Positions 5,006 through 47,068 of a DNA stretch of 64,000 nucleotides are shown here, one piece after another; the first letter of the stretch is position 1, and the number at the start of each line of letters is the position of its first letter. The stretch is taken from IMG/VR virus record IMGVR_UViG_3300031251_000015, positions 1-64,000 of that record. One strand, given 5' to 3'. This DNA is from a virus. The position numbers and the translations under genes are program-made. The notes under the pieces are model-generated. The model worked only from the letters and a program-made list of their open reading frames with translations, was not told the origin of the DNA and did not search any database.

Positions 5006-5674
5006 TTATCCTTTCCATATAATATTTTTTATAATTCTTCCTATGGTTGCTTGAGAGACATTAAATATTAAAGATAAATCTTGTTGAGATATTTTTAATA
5101 TTTTATAATTTTCTCGAATTCTATCTACTTCATTTTTAGTTAATTTAGCCATGTGGTTCTTTTCTCCCATCTGACTATAAGATATTTTACCACCAAAATC
5201 ACTTGGTTTTTTCTTTCCTTTTGTACTATTTGATATTTTTTCACCAAAACTTTTTGGATGTTTATATCCCAAAGAACGCGTATTTCCTATAAGACTTTTC
5301 GATATTTTTTTCTTTTGTTCTTCAGTAATTGGATTATTATTTATATAATTACACACAGCATCTGATATTTTCTTTCGTAATTCTACAGTATATTCTTTTA
5401 TAATTCTACCACCATCGCCACCATCTGACCTATTCATTCCTATCTTTGGGTTTGTAGAATTATAAAAAGATATCCAGTATATTTCTCGCTCATTTAATAA
5501 TTTTTTATCTTGTATATTATCTTCAATTATTTCTTTTTTAAATTGATTTTTACCATATTTTTTAATTTTTGCTTTAAGTATAATACCAGAACCTAAATAC
5601 TTTGGGTTATTTATAACACTTTGCCCAATGTAAATAAGTCCAGTAGCAATTTCGGTTGTTTTATATATAATCAT
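5006..5674 (-). CDS. GIY-YIG homing endonuclease
   Basis: About 222 aa from the ATG at 5674; an in-frame GTG at 5680 is the alternative. The N-terminal nuclease domain shows IYKTTEIATGLIYIGQS (the GIY-YIG strand pair) and KYGKNQFKKEII. NUMOD-type repeats follow (KKISKSLIGNTRS, GEKISNSTKGKKKPS), and a C-terminal helix-turn-helix ends in SQATIGRIIKNIIWKG. Such enzymes cut intron-less or endonuclease-less alleles and spread their own gene. It is inserted between an HNH gene and the 100-aa membrane protein, so it is a mobile passenger rather than a phage function. AT content is higher than in neighbouring structural genes. Confidence 0.9.
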   Translation of the reverse strand: MIIYKTTEIATGLIYIGQSVINNPKYLGSGIILKAKIKKYGKNQFKKEIIEDNIQDKKLLNEREIYWISFYNSTNPKIGMNRSDGGDGGRIIKEYTVELRKKISDAVCNYINNNPITEEQKKKISKSLIGNTRSLGYKHPKSFGEKISNSTKGKKKPSDFGGKISYSQMGEKNHMAKLTKNEVDRIRENYKILKISQQDLSLIFNVSQATIGRIIKNIIWKG

Positions 5675-5686
5675 AAGCACTCATAC

Positions 5687-11423: not shown

Positions 11424-13358
11424 CTATTCAAATATCTCTTCTGGTTCTGTTAAACTTGATTTTTTATTTTCCACAAGAGAGGTAACACATCGTTTTTTAT
11501 CATGAAGTGGAAGTAAACCACCATCTTTAATACTTTCTTCTAATATTTTTATACTATTCTTATATCTAACAACTTCACATACAGTGTCATTTGTTTCTAA
11601 AATTAAACCACCAATATATCGTCTATTTTGCATTAAAGGAACTCCAGCTTGGCCACCCATATCTGGAGACATTGGTTGACCACCTTGTTGTGATTGATCT
11701 GGCATCTGTTCAGCGCCCATATCTTCTGGTGACATTCCTTGACCACCCATATTAGAGAAATCTTCTCCACCCATAGGCATTCCTCCACCCATACCGCCCA
11801 TTCCTTCCATGCCAGCTTGTGGTGCTGTAGGATCAATTTTAAATATCTCTTCAATTTCAGCGTCTGATTTATTTAATACAGTTTTAGCTACCCAACGACG
11901 ATTAGCTCCCCAACCAGTCCATTTAGCTGCTAAATCAAGTAAAGCACCATCGTTTTCTATTCTTGCTTTTTCTTCAACATAGGAAGGACGAGACATTACT
12001 AAATTAAAAGATTTTAATTCAGTCTTACTTGAAATACCCCGAATAGCTAAATGAATAAAACACAAATCTTTAATAGCTTCAAGAAAATCTTCTTGAATAT
12101 TTTGAATGGCCTTACTAAAAGTAACATTCTGCTGTGATAACATTCCCTTTGAAGATACATCACCTTCGTATCCAAGGAAAGATTTAGGAACTTTAAGAGC
12201 AGAAAATAGCCGATTATTTAAAAATTCTACATCCTCAATCTTACCGATATCAGCAACTCCAGCCAGTTGTTCTACTTTAGTTGCTCCATTTTTCTGCATT
12301 GGAATATATAAGTTAGCATTCATATCAAGCAGCTGATAACGTTCATTAAGTTTACCAGTTGGATCAAAATACTCTTTTTTAGCTAATGCGTTTATCTGTT
12401 TCTTTACTATATTTTCAGCATCAGCGCCTTGATTGTTTCCTACATCAACGTAAAAAACTAATCTGGTTGGTGCCCTGTTTAATCTATAAATAATAAGAGA
12501 ATCAAATAATAAATCAAGTTTCTTCCAAGTATCTACAGCTGCGTCTAACGGGCTTGTTCCATAAGGCATAAACAAACCATTTCCACGAAGTTTAAAGTGT
12601 AGCATTTCATATTTTAAGAAAGTTATTAAAGAATTTTCGTTTTCTTTTTGAGCACTATCACCTGTCATATAAGGTAACGATAGAGTATTAAGATTTACAT
12701 ATGGATTTGTAGTAGCTGAACTAACATTGGCATTCTGAACAGCGCTCTTTAACACGTCTATATCTTGAACGTATCCAATTAAACTTCCCTTATCTTCTAG
12801 TCTATAAACAGAAATAGCGTCTATTTCAGTTAAATCAGTTACTCCGCCTACTGAATCTAATTTTAACGCCACAAAATGGTCACCATATTTAACCATATTT
12901 CGTATAATAGACCAACTTCTATAATTATTTATTCCTAAATCAGTTAATAATGTTTCAAGTTCATCTTGAATGTAACGAGAAGAAGAGTGGACACCAACTA
13001 CTTTACCTTGTTGATTTTTTTGAGTGGCTTCATTAGCATAAACATCAATGGCTGAAGCTATTAAATCAGTGTCCATTCTATCATACATAGTATATCTACC
13101 ATGTCGTAGAGTTTCTCGTTCAAGATATTTATGATAATTTTTTCCTAAACCTTCTTCATTAAAAATTGTTCCACGGCCCATTCCCTTTTTGGAAATTACC
13201 GTTGGTTCTACTGCCGGTTTAGCTGATAGTTCTCTATTAGTGGTGCTTAATGCTTTTTCAATAGAGTTTCTCGCAACAAACTCTCCTGGTTTGCTGTTAC
13301 TAAATACTCTGCCAAGTGCCGTAAATATATTTTTAAGTTGGAAAGGTGAATCGGCCAT
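11424..13358 (-). CDS. Portal protein (T4 gp20-like)
   Basis: 644 aa. It would form the dodecameric head vertex for DNA entry. Typical segments are RHGRYTMYDRMDTDLIASAI, DVYANEATQKN, LNRAPTRLVFYVDVGN and VPKSFLGYEGDVSSKGMLSQ. After about residue 515 there is a Met/Gly/Pro/Gln-rich low-complexity linker (GGMGGGMPMGGEDFS) and then an unusual 70-residue tail with two Cys that T4 gp20 lacks. The stop is TAG, with TAA ten codons later. It follows terminase, and a start at 13358 is supported by family alignment at GRVFSNSKPGEF. Confidence 0.93.
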   Translation of the reverse strand: MADSPFQLKNIFTALGRVFSNSKPGEFVARNSIEKALSTTNRELSAKPAVEPTVISKKGMGRGTIFNEEGLGKNYHKYLERETLRHGRYTMYDRMDTDLIASAIDVYANEATQKNQQGKVVGVHSSSRYIQDELETLLTDLGINNYRSWSIIRNMVKYGDHFVALKLDSVGGVTDLTEIDAISVYRLEDKGSLIGYVQDIDVLKSAVQNANVSSATTNPYVNLNTLSLPYMTGDSAQKENENSLITFLKYEMLHFKLRGNGLFMPYGTSPLDAAVDTWKKLDLLFDSLIIYRLNRAPTRLVFYVDVGNNQGADAENIVKKQINALAKKEYFDPTGKLNERYQLLDMNANLYIPMQKNGATKVEQLAGVADIGKIEDVEFLNNRLFSALKVPKSFLGYEGDVSSKGMLSQQNVTFSKAIQNIQEDFLEAIKDLCFIHLAIRGISSKTELKSFNLVMSRPSYVEEKARIENDGALLDLAAKWTGWGANRRWVAKTVLNKSDAEIEEIFKIDPTAPQAGMEGMGGMGGGMPMGGEDFSNMGGQGMSPEDMGAEQMPDQSQQGGQPMSPDMGGQAGVPLMQNRRYIGGLILETNDTVCEVVRYKNSIKILEESIKDGGLLPLHDKKRCVTSLVENKKSSLTEPEEIFE

Positions 13359-16549: not shown

Positions 16550-17122
16550 TTAAAGTTTCTCAAATATAGTTATAATTCTAAATCTATGATTCGTACTTTT
16601 TAACATCCCGATACACGCTACTATTTTGAAATCTATTTTTCTAAATTGTGGAAGAACTTGGTCGAGCCATACCACATGACTGCCAGCAGTTAATCCATTA
16701 CCAAGAGCCTTCATTACTTTATTACGGTGTATCATAGTAGTTTGATAGTGGTCGCAATCCTCCACAGAATACGGAGGGTCAGCTAATACTAGATCAAAAG
16801 TAGATAAAGGAACGTTTAATAAAGTTTGAGCATCATCTATATAGTCTGGATTATTTGCGGCGTTAATATCAACTGTCTTTCCTGGAAATATAGCTGTATC
16901 TACTTTACCAGAAAATAAATGAAGAACATTAGTCTTATCTGGGAACATTGCCTTGATACGTTTAAGATAACCAGCAGGATATCCACCATAGTAAGTTGAT
17001 TTTACTTTATAATTGTTTCCCATTATAAAGGTTCCAACTACTCTTTCATCACCGCCAATAAAAAGAGACTTTGGAAATCCAGTTACCTTCTCATAATTTT
17101 CTATTCGTTCTTTCCAGTCCAT
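16550..17122 (-). CDS. DNA methyltransferase-like protein (DPPY motif)
   Basis: 190 aa from the ATG at 17122, one base after the sigma-factor stop; a longer start at 17149 would overlap that gene. LVLADPPYSVEDC is the motif IV of N6-adenine or N4-cytosine DNA methyltransferases, and VLHLFSGKVD near residue 75 resembles the SAM-binding motif I (usually FxGxG) but is degenerate. It is short for a full methyltransferase and has no visible target-recognition domain. It may modify phage DNA against restriction or be a non-catalytic relative. Confidence is good for the fold, low for activity. Confidence 0.7.
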   Translation of the reverse strand: MDWKERIENYEKVTGFPKSLFIGGDERVVGTFIMGNNYKVKSTYYGGYPAGYLKRIKAMFPDKTNVLHLFSGKVDTAIFPGKTVDINAANNPDYIDDAQTLLNVPLSTFDLVLADPPYSVEDCDHYQTTMIHRNKVMKALGNGLTAGSHVVWLDQVLPQFRKIDFKIVACIGMLKSTNHRFRIITIFEKL

Positions 17123-17123
17123 A

Positions 17124-18101
17124 TTATTCGCTATCTTCCTTGCTATCACCTACATTAGCTAATTCAGAAAATATTACTAATGGCCCGAATATCATTTTTA
17201 TAAGTTCAAGAGCGTCAACAACATCCTTAACTTTAACACCACATTCATTTTTCAAAGTAAAAAGTAAATTATGAACCAATCTTGATGAAGCCTCTGGTGA
17301 TTTAAGAAGCTCTAAAAGTTTTGTAATTATCATCTTATTCATATCAGAAATTAATTCATCGTCTGAATCTTTTAGTGTCTCTAATACTAATAAGAACTCC
17401 TGAAAAATAACAGGCCCATCCGTTACAGAATAAGCCTCATTACCATACAATCTCGACACATTTTCATAGCTTACATTTGTTATTCGTTCAGCGCCGTAAG
17501 TCATAGTAATAGTTGTAATTCCGTAGTTCAATACCATAGTAAAATAGGTATAAACTCTTGCGTAAATATCACGACCATTATCATCTGTTCCAACTATTCT
17601 TTTTGGATCAAACTTATCCATCGCCTGAATAATTTTTAATATAGCACTCTGAAATATCTCTTCATATGCTAATCCATGTTTATGTCTGGCATATTTGAAT
17701 ATAACACCATCTATTAATGGATAGCAATAAGTTAAAAAATCATTCCTAGCATCATAGTCTTTTGTATCATGCCATTTTGTCCAGAGATACTTACCAACAT
17801 CTTCAATAAAATAGTTATTAGACTTTTTGCCGCGTTTCTTTTTATTAGCAAGTTCCGGAAAGCGATCTGGGAATAAGAGATATGCTTTTAACAAAAAACT
17901 ATCCGAATACTTATCATTCGGATATTTGTCTAACATTTCTTTTATTATTCTTTTTTCCATGTATTCAACAGCCAATTTATCATACATCACTACACGATAA
18001 GAGTGTTTGGTATCTCGTCCAATATCTTCCTTGTCAATCCCCAAATCTTCACACATATCAGCATATGGAGTTAGATTATCTTTATCATTAGTTGGTATCA
18101 T
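17124..18101 (-). CDS. Sigma-70-like RNA polymerase sigma factor (gp55-like)
   Basis: 325 aa. Residues about 118-200 resemble sigma region 2: ARNDFLTYCYPLIDGVIFKY, then YEEIFQSAILKIIQAMDKFDP and RVYTYFTMVLNYGI, matching the region 2 pattern of leading helix, D/E-xx-Q-x-A-xx-(G/K)-(L/I) and F-xx-Y. No clear region 4 is visible, as in T4 gp55, the late sigma (185 aa). It probably redirects host RNA polymerase to phage promoters and is the best candidate reader of motif A or B. It lies upstream of packaging and head genes, overlapping the end of a GIY-YIG gene by 14 bases. Confidence 0.75.
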   Translation of the reverse strand: MIPTNDKDNLTPYADMCEDLGIDKEDIGRDTKHSYRVVMYDKLAVEYMEKRIIKEMLDKYPNDKYSDSFLLKAYLLFPDRFPELANKKKRGKKSNNYFIEDVGKYLWTKWHDTKDYDARNDFLTYCYPLIDGVIFKYARHKHGLAYEEIFQSAILKIIQAMDKFDPKRIVGTDDNGRDIYARVYTYFTMVLNYGITTITMTYGAERITNVSYENVSRLYGNEAYSVTDGPVIFQEFLLVLETLKDSDDELISDMNKMIITKLLELLKSPEASSRLVHNLLFTLKNECGVKVKDVVDALELIKMIFGPLVIFSELANVGDSKEDSE

Positions 18102-24194: not shown

Positions 24195-24782
24195 ATGGAC
24201 TCATTACAAATAGACACTTTTATATCAGGCGTTATAGGATTATCTCATGTAGAACGATATCATGGGCATCAAACTATTAGTAAGCAGAGTGTGGCAGACC
24301 ATAGTGCCAGAGTTGCTCAATTAGCTCATATCGTAGCCTTTGAGTTCTATCGTGGAGATATAAATAAAGCTAATTCAGTTTCTGTATTTGCTCTTTTTCA
24401 TGACTTTTCTGAAAGTTTACTAAAAAGTGATATCAATTCAAGTGTAAAAAACAAACTAGGAATACGAGAATTAGTAAAACAGTTGGAAATTAATGTAGTT
24501 AATGAGTCTTTTGACAAAACTTCGCAACAATCTTATGGTGATGTAAGTCATATTAATGATTTACTATTAGAAAATTGCGAAGAATCTGACGATTACTGTA
24601 TTTTAAAACTATGCGATACGCTTGATTTTGGGTTGTATGTTAAAAATGAACTAATGTTAGGCAATAGTTATATGTTCCCATTACTCGATTCATTTAAGCG
24701 TGAGTTTTCTAAATATCCAGATTATTTAAAATCTACTCATATAGTTAAGGAAATATACGATAAGATAATAGTGGAGCAGTAA
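24195..24782 (+). CDS. HD-domain phosphohydrolase, YfbR-like 5'-nucleotidase
   Basis: 195 aa from the ATG at 24195, chosen because GGAGG is seven bases upstream; the TTG at 24189 lacks this spacing. HD-superfamily ligands are visible in HGHQTISKQSVADHSARVA, FALFHDFSES and CDTLDFGLYV. YfbR-type enzymes remove the 5'-phosphate from dNMPs, which would fit dNTP pool management with RNR, dUTPase and the dNMP kinase. It sits between FEN and primase and overlaps the primase start (TAATG). Confidence 0.85.
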   Translation: MDSLQIDTFISGVIGLSHVERYHGHQTISKQSVADHSARVAQLAHIVAFEFYRGDINKANSVSVFALFHDFSESLLKSDINSSVKNKLGIRELVKQLEINVVNESFDKTSQQSYGDVSHINDLLLENCEESDDYCILKLCDTLDFGLYVKNELMLGNSYMFPLLDSFKREFSKYPDYLKSTHIVKEIYDKIIVEQ

Positions 24783-25678
24783 TGTCTGAAATTATCTTAA
24801 ATTGCCCAAAATGTGCCGAACATGAGACTCCTAAACTCTACGTGAACGTGGAGTTAGGATGTTTTAATTGTTTTCGTTGTGGATTTAGTGGAAAACTACG
24901 TAAATTATACCAATTTCCAGAATTAGTATCATCTTTGGAAGATAAAATCTCATTATCAGAGTTTACCAAGCTTAAATCATTTAAGCCTATGGAGCTTACT
25001 GATATTGACGCATTAGAGGACTTAAATCCAGTAAGAGAATTGGTATATTCTGACCCACAATACACTTATTTAATGAACAGAGGCTGGACGGATGCTTTAA
25101 TCTTCCTTTATAAACCTCTTTTATCATTAAACCCTAAATATAAGGATAGAGTTGTTCTTCCAGTCATAAAAAACGAAAAAATTATATATTTTACTGCTCG
25201 TTCTATTGAGCAAAATCCAGCAATGAAGTATAAAAATCCAGCAATTCCTCGAAAAGATGTTATTTTTGAGTCTATTTTACCAGAAAATCAGTTTTTCAAG
25301 GAAACTTTGGTAATTTGTGAGGGATTTTTTGATGCTTTTAAAATACCTAATTCCATAGCTCTTTTTGGCAAGACAATTACATCTGAAAATGAGCTAAATA
25401 TACTCAAAAAAGCATCAAATAAGACAGAAATCTATGTTTGTCTTGATTTTGGTGCAGAACATTGGATTGAAGGTATCTGTAAAAAACTTCATGACTGGAT
25501 GCCTAATAAAAAAATCCACTTTATCGATACTAGTAAATATGAGGATAAGGATTTGGGTAAGTTATCTGAAGAATTGGACTCGTTTGAACTTATGTCATGG
25601 ATTAAAGAAAATAGTAAGGAATATTCGACAATTTCGTTAACTGATACTTTACGAAGCAAATTAAGGATGTATAATTAA
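24782..25678 (+). CDS. DnaG-type DNA primase (T4 gp61-like)
   Basis: 298 aa, T4 gp61 being 342 aa. The N-terminal zinc ribbon is CPKCAEHETP and CFNCFRCGFSG. A Toprim domain follows, with KDRVVLPVIKNEKIIYFTAR, LVICEGFFDAFKI (catalytic Glu) and IYVCLDFGAE; the usual DxD second motif is reduced to a single Asp. It lays RNA primers for lagging-strand synthesis. No replicative helicase or polymerase gene is in this window. It is the last protein gene before a tRNA. Confidence 0.88.
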   Translation: MSEIILNCPKCAEHETPKLYVNVELGCFNCFRCGFSGKLRKLYQFPELVSSLEDKISLSEFTKLKSFKPMELTDIDALEDLNPVRELVYSDPQYTYLMNRGWTDALIFLYKPLLSLNPKYKDRVVLPVIKNEKIIYFTARSIEQNPAMKYKNPAIPRKDVIFESILPENQFFKETLVICEGFFDAFKIPNSIALFGKTITSENELNILKKASNKTEIYVCLDFGAEHWIEGICKKLHDWMPNKKIHFIDTSKYEDKDLGKLSEELDSFELMSWIKENSKEYSTISLTDTLRSKLRMYN

Positions 25679-25724: not shown

Positions 25725-25802
25725 GTACCTGTAGCATAGTTCGGCCTAATGCGGTGGCCTCTAACTCCATGAGCGCAGGTTCAAATCCTGTCAGGTACAC
25801 CA
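25725..25802 (+). tRNA. tRNA with CUA anticodon (amber suppressor type)
   Basis: Full cloverleaf with encoded CCA. Acceptor GTACCTG pairs with CAGGTAC over seven bases. D stem GCAT/ATGC has an 11-nt loop containing GG. The T arm is GCAGG, TTCAAAT, CCTGT. The anticodon stem is GTGGC/TCCAT with one C-T mismatch next to the loop CTCTAAC (25759-25765). U33 and A37 are in place, so the anticodon at 25761-25763 is CUA, reading UAG. Discriminator is A73, variable loop four bases. The amino acid cannot be told from sequence alone. Confidence 0.82.
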
Positions 25803-25877
25803 ATCGTCCTCCTTGATGATTAAATGACTGTATTGCTTTATTAATACATGACATTTAATCAAAAAGGAGATTTTATT

Positions 25878-26504
25878 ATGTCAACTTCTATAAATACCAA
25901 TGAAATCAAACAACCACATGCTCCACGCTTTACACCAGAACAAAAGGAAGCATGGCAAAAAGCAAAAGAATTATTAAAAACTAGTATGAATTACCAGTCT
26001 AAACGAGCACTTCATATCGCAATGTCTCAATTACGATTAGAAGGTGGCCGAAAGCATAGGGGTCCGATTGAGGCTCTTCCGAAGAACGAAACAAAGCTAC
26101 AACAACATAATGCTGAAATAGTTAATATAAGACTTAATGAACGTGTAGCTGAATGGAAGGAATATTTAACTAACCCAGGTTCGCGTAAACTGTATATTAT
26201 TGTTAGTCCTGATTTAGATACCTCACAATCAGCCGTACAAGCCTCCCATTGTGCCGCAGACTTTGTTAAGCAACATCCACTCGCTCCTTGGATTAACGGT
26301 ACCATGGTGCTTCTAACGATGGATACTGATAAAATAAAAGGTAAAAATGCGTTAGAAATCTTTTGTAATGATTATTTCTGGTATGTTGATTACAAAACTT
26401 GCTGGAAAGAACCAGATCAGGATAACAGAATAACTGCTGTTGCTATGTTATGTGACTTTGGAAATGACCGAATAGGAAAGCAGCGAGGAGTTAAGTTGCT
26501 ATAA
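25878..26504 (+). CDS. Peptidyl-tRNA hydrolase Pth2-like protein
   Basis: 208 aa from the ATG at 25878, which has AAGGAG eight bases upstream; the frame from 25848 is not needed. The C-terminal half reads KLYIIVSPDLDTSQSAVQAS then HCAADFVKQHP and NGTMVLLTM, matching the Pth2 pattern of V-R-DL-(x)n-AAQ-HAA. The usual R before DL is SP here. Pth2 enzymes release peptides from stalled peptidyl-tRNA. The N-terminal 100 residues are basic and helical with no known domain. It lies directly after the amber-anticodon tRNA, which may be meaningful. Family call is moderate. Confidence 0.6.
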   Translation: MSTSINTNEIKQPHAPRFTPEQKEAWQKAKELLKTSMNYQSKRALHIAMSQLRLEGGRKHRGPIEALPKNETKLQQHNAEIVNIRLNERVAEWKEYLTNPGSRKLYIIVSPDLDTSQSAVQASHCAADFVKQHPLAPWINGTMVLLTMDTDKIKGKNALEIFCNDYFWYVDYKTCWKEPDQDNRITAVAMLCDFGNDRIGKQRGVKLL

Positions 26505-28563: not shown

Positions 28564-28915
28564 AAAATTAAATCTTTCAGACTTTTTAGCGCAAAGCTAC
28601 ATTACATCTCCTTTAACGTTTCAACCGAAGGAGTGTGATAATATGAGTTTTAGTTTGATAGAATTTTATAATATCATGTCAGCACACGTTGGTTCATTTA
28701 TTATAGACGAAATTACCTATTCGGCTATAATACCGTCAACAAGTAACCTTTATTTTTTCAGGGAGTCAGACAATGACGAATTTATTTTGTTATTTGACCC
28801 AATCAACGATATAAAAAAGAAAAATAATAGCGATTTTACTGTATTTTATTATCCTAATACTATTATTAATATTTCGTTAAGGGAATCAAATGTCAAAGAA
28901 GACAGGAATATATAA
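28556..28915 (+). CDS. Unknown protein, 119 aa, start uncertain
   Basis: Two starts are possible. TTG at 28556 gives an N-terminus KKLNLSDFLAQ that nearly repeats KRINLSDMLAQ of the 815-aa protein at 35591, which argues for it. ATG at 28643 has a much better AAGGAG ribosome site and gives 90 aa. The body is SFSLIEFYNIMSAHVGSF then YFFRESDNDEFILLFDP. The C-terminus overlaps the inserted GIY-YIG gene and may have been altered by that insertion. No domain recognised. Confidence 0.6.
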   Translation: MIKKLNLSDFLAQSYITSPLTFQPKECDNMSFSLIEFYNIMSAHVGSFIIDEITYSAIIPSTSNLYFFRESDNDEFILLFDPINDIKKKNNSDFTVFYYPNTIINISLRESNVKEDRNI

Positions 28916-29519
28916 AATTACTAATATATTAACAGGAGATTTATATATTGGTTCAGCAACAGATATAGTAAAAAGATGGTGGCTACACAAATACCAATTA
29001 TTAAAAAATATTCATCATTCTACTTATCTTCAAAACGCTTATAATAAATATGGAAAGAATACTTTTATATTTGAAGTATTACTTTATTGTGAAATAAAAG
29101 ATTTACTATTTTTTGAGCAACGAGCAATAGATACATATAATCCAGTATATAATATGTGTAAAATTGCTGGATCTAATAGAGGTTTGACTATATCTGATGA
29201 GCACAAACAAAAAATAGCAAAAGCTAACTTAAAAAATACACACAGACTTGGCAAAGTTCTCTCAAAAGAACACATACAAAAAATATCAGAGGCAAATAGT
29301 GGTGAAAATAACTATATGTTTGGCAAGAAACACTCTAAAGAAATGAGACAAAAAATGTCAAACAATAGTAAAGATAAATCAGGAGAGAATAACCCAATGT
29401 TTGGAGTTCATAGATTTGGTAACTTAAATCCCATGTTTGGAAAGCACCAATCAGAAGAAACTAAAAAGAAAATATCAGAAGCAGCAAAGAATAGAAAAAA
29501 GGATACTAATAATGTCTAA
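28890..29519 (+). CDS. GIY-YIG homing endonuclease with NUMOD3 repeats
   Basis: 209 aa. SKKTGIYKITNILTGDLYIG is the GIY-YIG pair, followed by a W-x-H-K helix, NAYNKYGKNTFIFEVL and FFEQRAIDTYNPVYN with the catalytic Glu. The C-terminal half has at least four NUMOD3 DNA-binding repeats (DEHKQKIAKANLKNT, KEHIQKISEANSGENN, SGENNPMFGVH). It overlaps both the preceding gene and the start of the next, an insertion exactly at a gene junction that supplies its own ribosome site. Confidence 0.93.
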   Translation: MSKKTGIYKITNILTGDLYIGSATDIVKRWWLHKYQLLKNIHHSTYLQNAYNKYGKNTFIFEVLLYCEIKDLLFFEQRAIDTYNPVYNMCKIAGSNRGLTISDEHKQKIAKANLKNTHRLGKVLSKEHIQKISEANSGENNYMFGKKHSKEMRQKMSNNSKDKSGENNPMFGVHRFGNLNPMFGKHQSEETKKKISEAAKNRKKDTNNV

Positions 29520-38046: not shown

Positions 38047-38328
38047 ATGGAACCAACACAACAAGAACAGTCAGTATCTAATGAAATAACAGAGATGTCT
38101 TTACAAGAAATGATGTTTCTTGTAAGTGCTTGTTTTTATACAACCGCTGCCGAAATAGGCCAACAAGCTTTAGAAGCTAAAAATGAAGCACTTGTAGTTA
38201 TTAAACATGCTGACGTTCCAGATATAGCAAAAGAAATTGAAGCGGCCGGCAAAGAAATAACTGATTTTAAAACAAAAGAAACAAAATATGATGGCACGGC
38301 GGAACCTTTAACTCCAGAAGAACCATAG
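38047..38328 (+). CDS. Small acidic helical protein, 93 aa
   Basis: Eight bases after the 815-aa gene. The sequence TEMSLQEMMFLVSACFYTTA is a hydrophobic helix, followed by Glu/Lys/Ala-rich helices. The TAG stop is in the same reading frame as the PD-(D/E)XK gene 11 codons later, with only motif A between. No function recognised. Confidence 0.6.
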   Translation: MEPTQQEQSVSNEITEMSLQEMMFLVSACFYTTAAEIGQQALEAKNEALVVIKHADVPDIAKEIEAAGKEITDFKTKETKYDGTAEPLTPEEP

Positions 38329-38364: not shown

Positions 38365-39759
38365 ATGTTGATTGACAAGACTACGATTCAGTATATAAAT
38401 CCAGCACTTAAGTTTTCAATAAAGAAATATTTTCCCTTGAAGGAGAAGACGTTGTTATACGACGCCTTGCTTTTTTGTAGTGTGATATCTAAAACTCCAA
38501 TGCGCTGTTCTTCTGCTGATTTAGAAGCCTTTAGTAATTTAATGATTAACTGTAAAGAACTTGATATATCTTTAGAAAAATATTTAAGTTGTGCTTATGC
38601 TTATATTAAGAAATATTCAACTCCTGGGCATAGGCTCGGAATATCTTATTTTCTAAATGATTCAGTAATAGAGTATTGTGGCTCTATGTTGGAAAAGTTC
38701 ACTAGCTCCTCTTTGTTTTTAGAGCAAGTAAAAAATGATATTCTGTCTACAGAAAAAAGTATAAGAGAATTAATGACGGAAACTTCAATATCATACGAGC
38801 AATCTTTTGGGAATATGCTTAAAAATAAAAAAATAAGTTCATTCTTTTTAGCGTATAAGAAGTTTTGTAATTCAGTGTTAGTTAAAGACTACAATTCTGA
38901 ATATTTTATGACATTAGTTAATATACTAGAGCCATTCTTTACGTATATTTTAGCTAAAAATAATGTATATAGTCCTCATAGGATACAAAAGTGGAATAAT
39001 TCTAAAATAGAAGATTTTAGTTTTTGTTCAGTGTATTTTACAGATAGATACATAACTAACGAACTTATAGAAGAATGCCTAGGCAACGAAGCTACTGAAA
39101 ATGGAACAAAGTTACACAGTATTTTTGAATCTATTTTTACTAGATATAACAAAAATAAAGTAAAAAATCTAAAAAATATAGCATTAAAATATTTTAAATC
39201 TACAGCTTATTTGGATATAAAGAAAGAACTACCTGAACATATGTCGTTTATAGAGGAATTATTTACAAAAGATGATTCTATTTTTTATTCCTTGCTTGAT
39301 GAAAATACACAAGTTTTAGTAGAACATACAATGAATGCTAATCTGGCTGGATTTGAGTTTTATGGAACAGCAGATTTGATTTTTATAAACAATAACAAAG
39401 CTTATATATTTGACTATAAATCATCAAAATTAGATGAAAAGTATTTAACAAAAAATAACGACAAGTATAATAAACAAATTAGTCTTTATGCTAAACTATT
39501 AAAAGAAGAACATCCAGAACTTATTAGCATAACTGGAAAAATTATATATACAAGAGGATTACTACATCCGTTTGATAAATTAAATGATAATATTCATATA
39601 GAACGAGCATTAGACATAGAAAAAATTAAAAAAACATTAAAATCAGGCATTCTTATGCCAAATACTCGCAATTGTTTTCTCTGTAGACACCCGGCTTGTA
39701 AGTTTAGAACACGACCTAGTATTTGGGCAGAGGATGGTTCGCGAAAAATAAGCAATTAA
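38365..39759 (+). CDS. PD-(D/E)XK superfamily nuclease (RecB/Cas4-like)
   Basis: 464 aa. The catalytic core is in the second half: NGTKLHSIFESIF (conserved His), FEFYGTADLIFI (motif II Asp) and KAYIFDYKSSKLDE (the (D/E)xK pair), then KQISLYAKLLKEEHPE. A C-terminal cluster NCFLCRHPACKFR could hold a metal or part of an iron-sulfur cluster as in AddB/Cas4 proteins. The first 240 residues are helical and unrecognised. Role in recombination or DNA processing is inferred. Motif A gives it its own promoter. Confidence 0.85.
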   Translation: MLIDKTTIQYINPALKFSIKKYFPLKEKTLLYDALLFCSVISKTPMRCSSADLEAFSNLMINCKELDISLEKYLSCAYAYIKKYSTPGHRLGISYFLNDSVIEYCGSMLEKFTSSSLFLEQVKNDILSTEKSIRELMTETSISYEQSFGNMLKNKKISSFFLAYKKFCNSVLVKDYNSEYFMTLVNILEPFFTYILAKNNVYSPHRIQKWNNSKIEDFSFCSVYFTDRYITNELIEECLGNEATENGTKLHSIFESIFTRYNKNKVKNLKNIALKYFKSTAYLDIKKELPEHMSFIEELFTKDDSIFYSLLDENTQVLVEHTMNANLAGFEFYGTADLIFINNNKAYIFDYKSSKLDEKYLTKNNDKYNKQISLYAKLLKEEHPELISITGKIIYTRGLLHPFDKLNDNIHIERALDIEKIKKTLKSGILMPNTRNCFLCRHPACKFRTRPSIWAEDGSRKISN

Positions 39760-43477: not shown

Positions 43478-46400
43478 ATGACAGATCTTCTAAACAAAGA
43501 AGCTTTACAGTATTTAGTAAGTAAAAACATATCACCAGAAAGCGCATCCGAGGCACAATTATCCGATGCTAAAGCTTACAGTAACTGCTATAATTGGTAT
43601 ATTGAAACGCAAAAGGTTCTACCAAATACAGCAGATTTAGCATCAAGTATTTTTGTACAGAAATATGCCCTACACAATACGGTTGGTATTTGTTTAGAAC
43701 AGACTCCTGAAATGATGTGGGATAGGATTGCTAACGTACTTGCCGATGAAGAAATTGCTACTAATCTTGTTAATACAGATAGATCCTATTGGTTTAAGCA
43801 ATTCAGAGAGATTTTGACTAACTGGAAGTATAGTCCTCAAGGTTCTGGTCTTTATGCTCTTGGCAATCCTTATGTTAAAGCCAGCGCAAGTAATTGTTTT
43901 GTTGTTAATTCTCCAAGTGATAGTTTAGAATCTATTTTTGATACAGCTAAGGATATGGCTCGTATTTATGCTGCCCGTGGTGGTTGTGGAACTAATATAT
44001 CCAATCTTCGTCCATTTGGTGCTACTACTAATAATGCCGCCAAGTCTTCTACTGGTGCCGCAAGTTTTATGGACTTTTTTAGTCATGTAACTTCTACTAT
44101 TGGACAAGCTGGTAGACGTGGTGCTCTGATGCTTTGTATGGAAGTTCATCACCCTGATATTTTTAGATTTATTGAAATGAAACAAGATTTGGATAAACAA
44201 TGGTTCTTTGAAGAGCTTGCCGAATCTGGTGTAAACATTAATGATTGGAAATATTCAAGTATTGCCGACCGTCTTAAATCTACTTCTCATGCCAATGTAT
44301 CTGTTCTTATCGATAATCAGTTTATCAATGCCGTAGAAAATGATTTAGACTACGAACTTTACTACGAGTTTGAGAATAACCAGTATCCAAGGATTTCACA
44401 ATGGGTTAAGGCGCGAGATATTTGGGATAAACTAATTGAAGGTGCTACTAATTCAGCTGAGCCTGGAATCATTAACATGGAATTGATTAGGAAAGAAAGT
44501 CCAGCAGATTGTTATTCTGAACCAACTGACTATATTATTGGCGATAAGAAAGTTACTTACTCGTTTAAGACTACCGCCACTAACCCTTGTATTTCCGGCA
44601 ATAGTTATGTGTTAACTGATAGTGGATATAAACAAGTTAATACTCTATTAAATACTTCATGGAAAGCTACTATTAACGGTAATAATTATGATGCATCAGC
44701 TTTCTGGGAAACTGGATATAAACAAATCTATAATGTGACGCTAGCTAATGGAACAACAATAAAAGCCACATTAGACCACAAGCTTCAGTTAATTGATGAC
44801 TCCTGGGTAACAGTAGAAGATTCATTAAATAAAATATTAAAAAATAACGTAGTAGAAACATACAATGTTTTAGACATATCTTCTGATGATTTTAAAAGTG
44901 GTTGGCTAGTTGGTTCTATTGTTGGAGATGGCTATTACACAACTACTTCCGGTTCAGCTGTAATGTATTGGGGTAAATGTGCTAATGAACTAGCGGAATA
45001 TGCTAACACTTGTTTAAATAGAACTACAACGTTAACTAAAACAGAAAATAAAATAAAAATAAGAACCAATACAATTAATGACTTACTTTCTTCTATTATT
45101 GAAATAGACACAAAAGAAATTAAACCAGCTATATACAGTAAATCAAAGGAGTTTATCTCTGGCTTTTTAAGTGGATTATTCGATGCAGATGGTAGCGTTC
45201 AAGGAACTGCTCTAAAAGGATATAGCGTTAGGTTATCTCAATCTAAAATATCTCTTATTGAACATTGTCAACGATTACTTCATATGCTTGGTGTTTCAAG
45301 CAAGGTTTGTAAAAATAGACGGTTAGAAAATGAAAAATATTGGGCACAAGGAAATAAAATATATATAAGTAAAGCACAACATGAATTACTTATTTCAAGT
45401 TCTAATTTACTTTCCTTTAATTCGGCCATTCATTTTATAACTACTTATAAGTATAACAAACTTAATACAATTATTGAAAATACTAATTTCTATATGTCAA
45501 AACCAAAAACAAAGGTAATTAGTATTGTATTATCAGGCGTAGAACCTGTTTACGATTGCACTGTTGATACTGTTCATTGCTTTGATTTAAACGGTATTAT
45601 AGCACATAATTGTGGTGAACTTCCATTATCCCCTGGTGATAGTTGTTGCTTGGGAACTCATAATCTTCCAGCTTTCGTTATCAATCCATTTAAAGATAAC
45701 GCAAAGTTTGACTGGGCTGGATTTGAAAAAGTAGTTATGCTGTCAACTCGCGCTCAGGACAACATTAAAGGTATTGATATTGGTCTTGTCCCACTTGAAA
45801 TAAACAAAGTATCAGCTATCCTTGGTAGACGTATTGGTATGGGGTGTAATGGCCTCTCTGACTGTCTTGCTATGCTGGGAATACGATACGACTCTGACAA
45901 GGCTATTGAGGTTTCTGGACGTATCTATGAGCTACTACGCAATACAGTATATGCTTCATCGATTCAGTTGGCAGAAGAAAAAGGTGCCTTCCCAATTTAT
46001 AACGCTGAAAAGGAAAAAAATAACCCATTCCTGTTAAGACTACCAAAAGAACTACAAAATAAGCCACGCAGAAACATAGCTTGTTTGACAAATGCTCCTA
46101 ATGGCTCTATGTCTATTGAAATGAACGGTTCTTCGTCAGGTATTGAGCCTGTATTTGAAACTGACGAGTATATGCGTAATGTAAAGCGTTCTGGAACCAA
46201 TGATTTCGTTCAATTTAAGGTTCGTCATCAGGCTATTGAAGATTGTGTAAATGCTGGTGGAAATCCTAATATATTTGTTAAGGCAAATGATGTTAGTGGA
46301 GAAATGCGTATTAAACTTCAGGCCACTATTCAAAAATATATTGACCATGCTATTTCGGTAACTACAAATCTTCCACAAGGAACTACCCAAGAAGTAGTGG

Positions 46401-47068
46401 GTAGTCTATATCTAAAAGCGTTTAAAGCTGGTTGTAAGGGCTTTACCGTATACGTTGATGGTTGTAGAACTGGTGTATTAAATACTATAAAGACTGAACC
46501 AAAAGTACACAAGGTAACAGATAGACCTAAAACAACTGATGTAGATGTGTTTAAGACCAAATATAAAGATCGTTCATATATGATTTTAGTTGGAAAAATT
46601 AAAGGTGTACCATGTGAAATCTTTGGAGGAGAAGAGACTGGATTAAGTCTTCCCACCAAATATAAATCTGCTACTTTAACCAAGAAATCAAGAGGGCACT
46701 ACACTCTTAATATTCAATTATCAGAAGACCCAGAAGATATTTTAAAGGTTAATAATTTAGGAAATCTTTTTCCGGCAGGGGATGTAATAACTATCGCCAG
46801 AATGATTAGTTTATCTTTACGAAATGGTATCCCAATTTCCGAAATAGTAGAACAATTAGCTAAAAGTGGCTCTACACTATATGATGCCCCGACAGTATTT
46901 GCTAGAGTTCTTAAAAATTATATTCCAGATGAAGAGATTATTTCAAAAGAAAAGGCTAAAAATAAACCATGTCCAGAATGTGGTAGTGAGCTAAATTATA
47001 AGCGTGAAAGTGGTTGTTTAACTGAAATATGTAGTTCATGTAGTTATACTAATTCTAAATGTGGATAA
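43478..47068 (+). CDS. nrdJ: Class II (B12-dependent) ribonucleotide reductase with intein
   Basis: 1196 aa including a 341-aa intein; the mature enzyme is about 855 aa. Class II signs: NPYVKASASNCFVV (first redox Cys, residue 139), RIYAARGGCGTNISNLRP, NPCGELPL rebuilt across the splice site with the radical Cys at residue 712, the NLPQGTTQEVVGSLYLKAFK and GCKGFTVYVDG segment, and a C-terminal zinc ribbon CPECGSEL / CSSC typical of NrdJ. It makes deoxynucleotides from ribonucleotides using adenosylcobalamin, so it needs no oxygen or second subunit. Motif A drives it. Confidence 0.93.
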   Translation: MTDLLNKEALQYLVSKNISPESASEAQLSDAKAYSNCYNWYIETQKVLPNTADLASSIFVQKYALHNTVGICLEQTPEMMWDRIANVLADEEIATNLVNTDRSYWFKQFREILTNWKYSPQGSGLYALGNPYVKASASNCFVVNSPSDSLESIFDTAKDMARIYAARGGCGTNISNLRPFGATTNNAAKSSTGAASFMDFFSHVTSTIGQAGRRGALMLCMEVHHPDIFRFIEMKQDLDKQWFFEELAESGVNINDWKYSSIADRLKSTSHANVSVLIDNQFINAVENDLDYELYYEFENNQYPRISQWVKARDIWDKLIEGATNSAEPGIINMELIRKESPADCYSEPTDYIIGDKKVTYSFKTTATNPCISGNSYVLTDSGYKQVNTLLNTSWKATINGNNYDASAFWETGYKQIYNVTLANGTTIKATLDHKLQLIDDSWVTVEDSLNKILKNNVVETYNVLDISSDDFKSGWLVGSIVGDGYYTTTSGSAVMYWGKCANELAEYANTCLNRTTTLTKTENKIKIRTNTINDLLSSIIEIDTKEIKPAIYSKSKEFISGFLSGLFDADGSVQGTALKGYSVRLSQSKISLIEHCQRLLHMLGVSSKVCKNRRLENEKYWAQGNKIYISKAQHELLISSSNLLSFNSAIHFITTYKYNKLNTIIENTNFYMSKPKTKVISIVLSGVEPVYDCTVDTVHCFDLNGIIAHNCGELPLSPGDSCCLGTHNLPAFVINPFKDNAKFDWAGFEKVVMLSTRAQDNIKGIDIGLVPLEINKVSAILGRRIGMGCNGLSDCLAMLGIRYDSDKAIEVSGRIYELLRNTVYASSIQLAEEKGAFPIYNAEKEKNNPFLLRLPKELQNKPRRNIACLTNAPNGSMSIEMNGSSSGIEPVFETDEYMRNVKRSGTNDFVQFKVRHQAIEDCVNAGGNPNIFVKANDVSGEMRIKLQATIQKYIDHAISVTTNLPQGTTQEVVGSLYLKAFKAGCKGFTVYVDGCRTGVLNTIKTEPKVHKVTDRPKTTDVDVFKTKYKDRSYMILVGKIKGVPCEIFGGEETGLSLPTKYKSATLTKKSRGHYTLNIQLSEDPEDILKVNNLGNLFPAGDVITIARMISLSLRNGIPISEIVEQLAKSGSTLYDAPTVFARVLKNYIPDEEIISKEKAKNKPCPECGSELNYKRESGCLTEICSSCSYTNSKCG
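44588..45610 (+). mobile_element. Intein with LAGLIDADG homing endonuclease in RNR
   Basis: Residues 371-711 of the precursor. Block A begins CISGNSYVLTDSG with Cys1. Block B is ATLDHKLQL. Two LAGLIDADG-type helices are LVGSIVGDGYY and FLSGLFDADGS. The end is CFDLNGIIAHN followed by Cys+1. All residues needed for splicing (Cys1, block B His, terminal HN, Cys+1) are present, so it should be active. The insertion point lies between NP and the catalytic Cys of NPCGE. Confidence 0.95.

Follow-up and report, generated by a model that had tools for sequence, protein, structure and literature searches.

The tRNA with a CUA anticodon in the window (the whole 64,000-nucleotide stretch of viral DNA analysed here) is a genuine UAG-reading tRNA, outside any genome-wide code change, and it is probably the RNA half of a conserved pair in which a stop-reading tRNA, nearly always one for UAG, accompanies a dedicated PTH2. 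The pairing, and an early UAG in many of the PTH2 genes, are seen in sequence comparisons, from which we infer how the two partners might act together. The sequence-only reading had described the tRNA and passed over both the PTH2 gene next to it and the general association of phage PTH2 with stop-anticodon tRNAs. The features of the locus are:

24782-25678, + strand: DNA primase-like gene 5' of the tRNA, context only (phrog_47, E = 4e-35)
25725-25802, + strand: tRNA, anticodon CUA at 25761-25763, encoded CCA at 25800-25802 (ARAGORN, Rfam RF00005)
25864-25869, + strand: Shine-Dalgarno-like AAGGAG, 8 nt 5' of the ATG at 25878 (sequence)
25878-26504, + strand: predicted PTH2-type peptidyl-tRNA hydrolase gene, 208 aa, longest ORF 25848-26504 (tblastn relatives, fold, conserved residues)
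25878-26186, + strand: N-terminal helical extension of about 103 aa, common to the nearest relatives L017-L019 (alignment, model, tblastn 56% over 225 columns)
26187-26450, + strand: PTH2 domain proper (profile match; model pLDDT mostly 79-96)

ARAGORN made one tRNA call in the window, at 25725-25802 on the + strand with anticodon CTA, exactly where the tRNA had first been placed, and Rfam RF00005 matched 25725-25799 with 56.8 bits against a gathering score of 29 (E = 1.4e-9). No second tRNA was found by either method anywhere in the 67,598-base record. The tRNA forms a complete cloverleaf and has C32, U33 and A37; the CUA anticodon, U33, A37 and CCA tail given by the sequence-only reading are thereby confirmed, and its view that the molecule should read UAG is, with this anticodon, judged right. 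The C-U mismatch that it saw in the anticodon stem is also drawn by ARAGORN, at position 31-39 (C31 at 25758, U39 at 25766). Among stop-anticodon tRNAs that neighbour phage PTH2 genes, 12/44 have a 31-39 mismatch, compared with 22/401 of the other tRNAs at these loci (P = 2e-5), and because of this enrichment we do not regard it as a sign of decay. ARAGORN labels the gene tRNA-Pyl on account of the CUA anticodon only. The hallmark of tRNA-Pyl is a six-pair anticodon stem; the stem here has four pairs and the 31-39 mismatch, which does not fit that identity.

The window has 62 ORFs of 90 aa or longer; their stop is TAA in 48 cases, TAG in 14 and never TGA, and the TAG count agrees with the earlier estimate of about 15 genes ended by that codon. 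When TAG is opened, ORF coverage goes up only from 0.923 to 0.945, and 3' extensions past TAG-terminated genes are neither longer nor shorter than those past TAA-terminated genes. Thus, TAG functions as a stop, and the 64 kb contain nothing that depends on its being read. The search for TAG-interrupted genes that had been recommended found none within the window; no gene there requires read-through, and the structural and replication genes hold no in-frame TAG. The sequence-only reading had placed partial read-through or a late switch above full recoding: the small change in coverage agrees with it that recoding is not complete, and the lack of TAG-interrupted genes and the likeness of the two sets of extensions speak against the late switch. 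Full or late TAG recoding was rejected, since the window gives it no support, as was assignment to the stop-recoded phages (code 15, TAG as glutamine), whose CUA tRNA is present here and whose in-frame TAG codons and gain in coding density are not. Two local candidates were also set aside: a read-through fusion of 38047-38328 with 38365-39759, which is near chance expectation, and an amber-gated gene at 16550-17155 (ATG-TAG-GTG), for which an ATG further downstream is the likely start.

The phage is a divergent T4-like myovirus, given its genes for a Gp23-type major capsid protein, portal, terminase, UvsX, SbcC/SbcD-like proteins and sheath. The virus record is an incomplete contig of 33% GC, and a direct search for close relatives returned a single contig, with a near-identical terminase (L002). 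TGA is almost absent as a stop (0/62 ORFs of at least 90 aa vs 18% in other AT-rich loci, P ~7e-6). TGA-free phages are known for hosts reading TGA as glycine (PMC10746230). A UGA-less host was rejected because a TGA-terminated ORF lies at 64343-64633 of the record, just beyond the window, and so was a sense meaning of TGA, whether for the window, which lacks any in-frame TGA, or for L017-L019, among which the L018 gain resembles the GC effect of other GC-rich loci. The ribonucleotide reductase large subunit at 43478-47068 holds an intein with a LAGLIDADG endonuclease, and the N-termini of the ORFs at 5006-5680 and 28890-29519 resemble, by eye, GIY-YIG homing endonucleases.

The PTH2 gene starts at 25878, 76 nt past the tRNA end at 25802, both on the + strand. 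Its modelled structure and its relatives mark it as PTH2-type, a predicted peptidyl-tRNA hydrolase. The relatives found by tblastn with its product were all distant and came from Lak megaphages (code 15) and one further huge phage; a CTA tRNA adjoins PTH2 in LR756500 and a TTA tRNA does so in Lak-B5. The predicted structure matched PTH2 structures only, with a probability of 0.99-1.00, and the best 11 PDB matches were all of the PTH2 fold (Bit1, MJ0051, AF2095, TA0108, Atu0240). A Pfam scan of the protein gave no family at E <= 0.01 and did not reach the PF01981 gathering score, which the same-family relatives L021, L034, L049, L077, L083 and L012 exceed. Q, H, EPD and T are invariant across 57/57 phage PTH2 clusters, the window copy among them. 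The phage PTH2 family shows no equivalent of the GK motif found in archaeal AF2095, so hydrolase activity is not certain. The window gene has no in-frame TAG, its frame being open from 25848.

PTH2 loci were fetched by protein pattern alone, with an alignment of three PTH2 domains, which gave 80 loci from viral contigs; with phage records added, they formed 57 PTH2 clusters at 70% identity, 56 of them with a scanned locus. A stop-anticodon tRNA is present in 47 of these 56, within 1 kb of PTH2 in 41/47 and on the PTH2 strand in 46/47. Where a cluster has at least three tRNAs including a stop-anticodon one, the latter is the nearest to PTH2 in 30/33 cases (expected 5.8, P ~7e-24), and at several loci the tRNA begins 0-15 nt past the PTH2 stop. 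These tRNAs are highly diverse and unrelated to each other in sequence, so a single orthologous tRNA family was rejected and the anticodon appears as the conserved trait. No stop-anticodon tRNA was found near PTH2 in XacN1, RAS14, RaK2 or Mx1, and none is annotated there in phiAS5 or Atu_ph07. The converse association fails: among 20 phage CTA tRNAs flanked on each side by 1 kb of sequence, only two have PTH2 within 1 kb, so such tRNAs exist for other reasons too. In L017-L019 the tRNA is placed relative to PTH2 as in the window. On this comparative evidence, phage PTH2 and a stop-anticodon tRNA appear to be a gene pair previously unremarked; the literature covered, an incomplete set that is no proof of novelty, contained no such link between phage PTH2 and suppressor tRNAs.

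In Lak phages TAG is read as glutamine, TAA ends 17/18 ORFs, and the PTH2-linked tRNA reads TAA (anticodon TTA). This ochre tRNA lies about 600-700 nt 5' of PTH2 in L004, L015 and L016, and a TAA-reading tRNA was reported, without explanation, in 51/51 Lak genomes (PMC8346664). In Lak-A2 (L015, about 11920-12004), the PTH2 frame, compared with that of Lak-C1, is interrupted 5' of the domain where ten A occur in a row, which may be an assembly error or a frameshift site.

In 20 of the 57 clusters, the stretch from the nearest 5' in-frame stop to the PTH2 domain lacks any start codon. That stop is TAG in 20/20 of these start-less frames vs 173/878 other long frames, and an ATG stands 1-8 codons ahead of this TAG, hereafter the gate, in 19/20 clusters, several of these ATGs being preceded by a Shine-Dalgarno sequence. 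Since the frame has no start of any kind 3' of the TAG, a gated PTH2 could be produced only if UAG is read. Amber suppression in E. coli is favoured by a 3' purine. The +4 base after the gate is a purine in 20/20 clusters vs 96/172 genuine TAG stops (P = 2e-5). A second scan, with gated PTH2 sequences as queries, gave 15 new clusters, of which 14 have a TAG gate (+4 purine in 14/14) and 11 a stop-anticodon tRNA within 4 kb; with both scans pooled, the purine test reaches P = 2e-8. Overall, 34 of 72 PTH2 clusters have an early in-frame gate, whose stop is always TAG and whose +4 base is always a purine. No TAG excess was seen in same-shaped frames elsewhere in the PTH2 loci. Moreover, TAG is a rarer stop in gated phages (7.2% vs 16.0%, P = 4e-5), as expected if UAG is read there to some degree, and the gated or ungated label changes at least five times on the PTH2 tree. 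Mycobacterium cluster C phages were excluded from the count, since a GTG 7 nt past a Shine-Dalgarno sequence comes after their TAG. L025, L028, L056, L074 and L008 have lone TAG codons within the PTH2 domain and not at its start.

Two cultured phages are gated, each with a CTA tRNA nearby: Serratia phage BF, with ATGACGCAC-TAG before PTH2, and Acinetobacter phage ME3, with ATGACT-TAG. The BF PTH2 (L217, 4001-4252) has no annotated CDS, probably owing to the early TAG, and in several related Erwinia phages the corresponding place likewise has no annotated feature.

Peptidyl-tRNA drop-off is highest in early elongation, chiefly ahead of a poorly served codon, and the freed peptidyl-tRNA is recycled by Pth (PMC10192219). 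It is on these grounds that we propose a suppressor tRNA coupled to a dedicated hydrolase that depends on suppression. The CUA tRNA would decode UAG weakly, in competition with the host release factor RF1; abortive decoding might free peptidyl-tRNA, above all near the start of a gene; PTH2 would recycle it, and an early amber in the PTH2 gene would tie hydrolase output to the level of suppression. Charging of the tRNA, read-through and PTH2 activity are supposed, and the pairing and the gate are read from the sequences. Somewhat more tentatively, the nonsense tRNA of these phages and a PTH2 gated by that tRNA's own codon may form a stop-codon circuit complete in itself, in which suppression, or equivalently host RF1 activity, would set the amount of hydrolase, and of which the window would be an ungated relative. 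The window, like L017-L019, has the pair and not the gate, so the role of its tRNA is less certain than in gated relatives; its targets could be genes beyond the 67.6-kb fragment or TAG stops, of the phage or the host, that are read through at a low level, or it may have none.

A different action of PTH2, at the UAG codon itself, where it would lower the suppression yield or aid release and its own early UAG would give negative feedback, would fit the amber at the very start of a gene for an amber-acting product, and also a linked tRNA that reads a stop still in use, UAG in most phages and UAA in Lak. The known substrate of Pth enzymes is free peptidyl-tRNA, however, and they do not act at the ribosomal A site, which makes this reading unlikely. 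Partial recoding or a late code switch, with the tRNA serving TAG codons within late genes, draws on the suppressor tRNAs of recoded phages (e.g. PMC8346664) and on the possibility that most of this genome is missing; with TAG ending genes as it does here, structural and replication genes free of it and extensions alike after both stops, it is a long shot.

PTH2 could also serve defence, by clearing peptidyl-tRNA from ribosomes that host tRNA nucleases have stalled, the CUA tRNA being a decoy or incidental. Such a role is put forward for jumbo phages in PMC7824862, and phage PTH2 often lies within tRNA-rich regions, but its neighbour is specifically a stop-anticodon tRNA and half of the family has an amber gate, so the chance is slimmer still. 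That the window tRNA is a decaying passenger, as the C31-U39 mismatch and the lack of a target codon in the window might suggest, is hardly credible for a 56.8-bit tRNA with an encoded CCA, a place relative to PTH2 shared with L017-L019 and a mismatch typical of its class.

The conserved pair, our preferred reading, can be compared with several known systems. In prfB, which encodes RF2, an in-frame UGA provides autoregulation by negative feedback. The PTH2 gate resembles it as a stop codon close behind the start codon of a gene for a translation factor; it differs in being an amber, with same-frame read-through by the linked tRNA as the proposed route, and the window's own copy has no gate. 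An archaeal-type peptidyl-tRNA hydrolase in phages was already described for jumbo phages, in an account (PMC7824862) whose available part includes neither the pairing with a stop-anticodon tRNA nor the early in-frame amber. The stop-recoded Lak and crAss-like phages (code 15) share with the window a phage-encoded CUA tRNA, whereas in the window TAG stays a stop (14/62) and opening it has little bearing on coding density; in Lak, moreover, the tRNA beside PTH2 reads TAA and not the recoded TAG.

A further likeness is with XacN1 (PMC5852040) and Summit (PMC9022506), standard-code phages that use TAG as a stop and encode a CUA tRNA whose target gene was not found. The window differs from them in that a partner gene is found; the PTH2 of XacN1 (L013) has neither a nearby tRNA nor a gate. 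The PTH2 pairing suggests a partner for such orphan suppressor tRNAs of standard-code phages and for the TAA-reading tRNA of Lak, and in gated phages the PTH2 amber as a concrete target codon. The gate pattern also reveals genes missed by annotators, such as that of Serratia phage BF, and the proposal is open to test in cultured phages.
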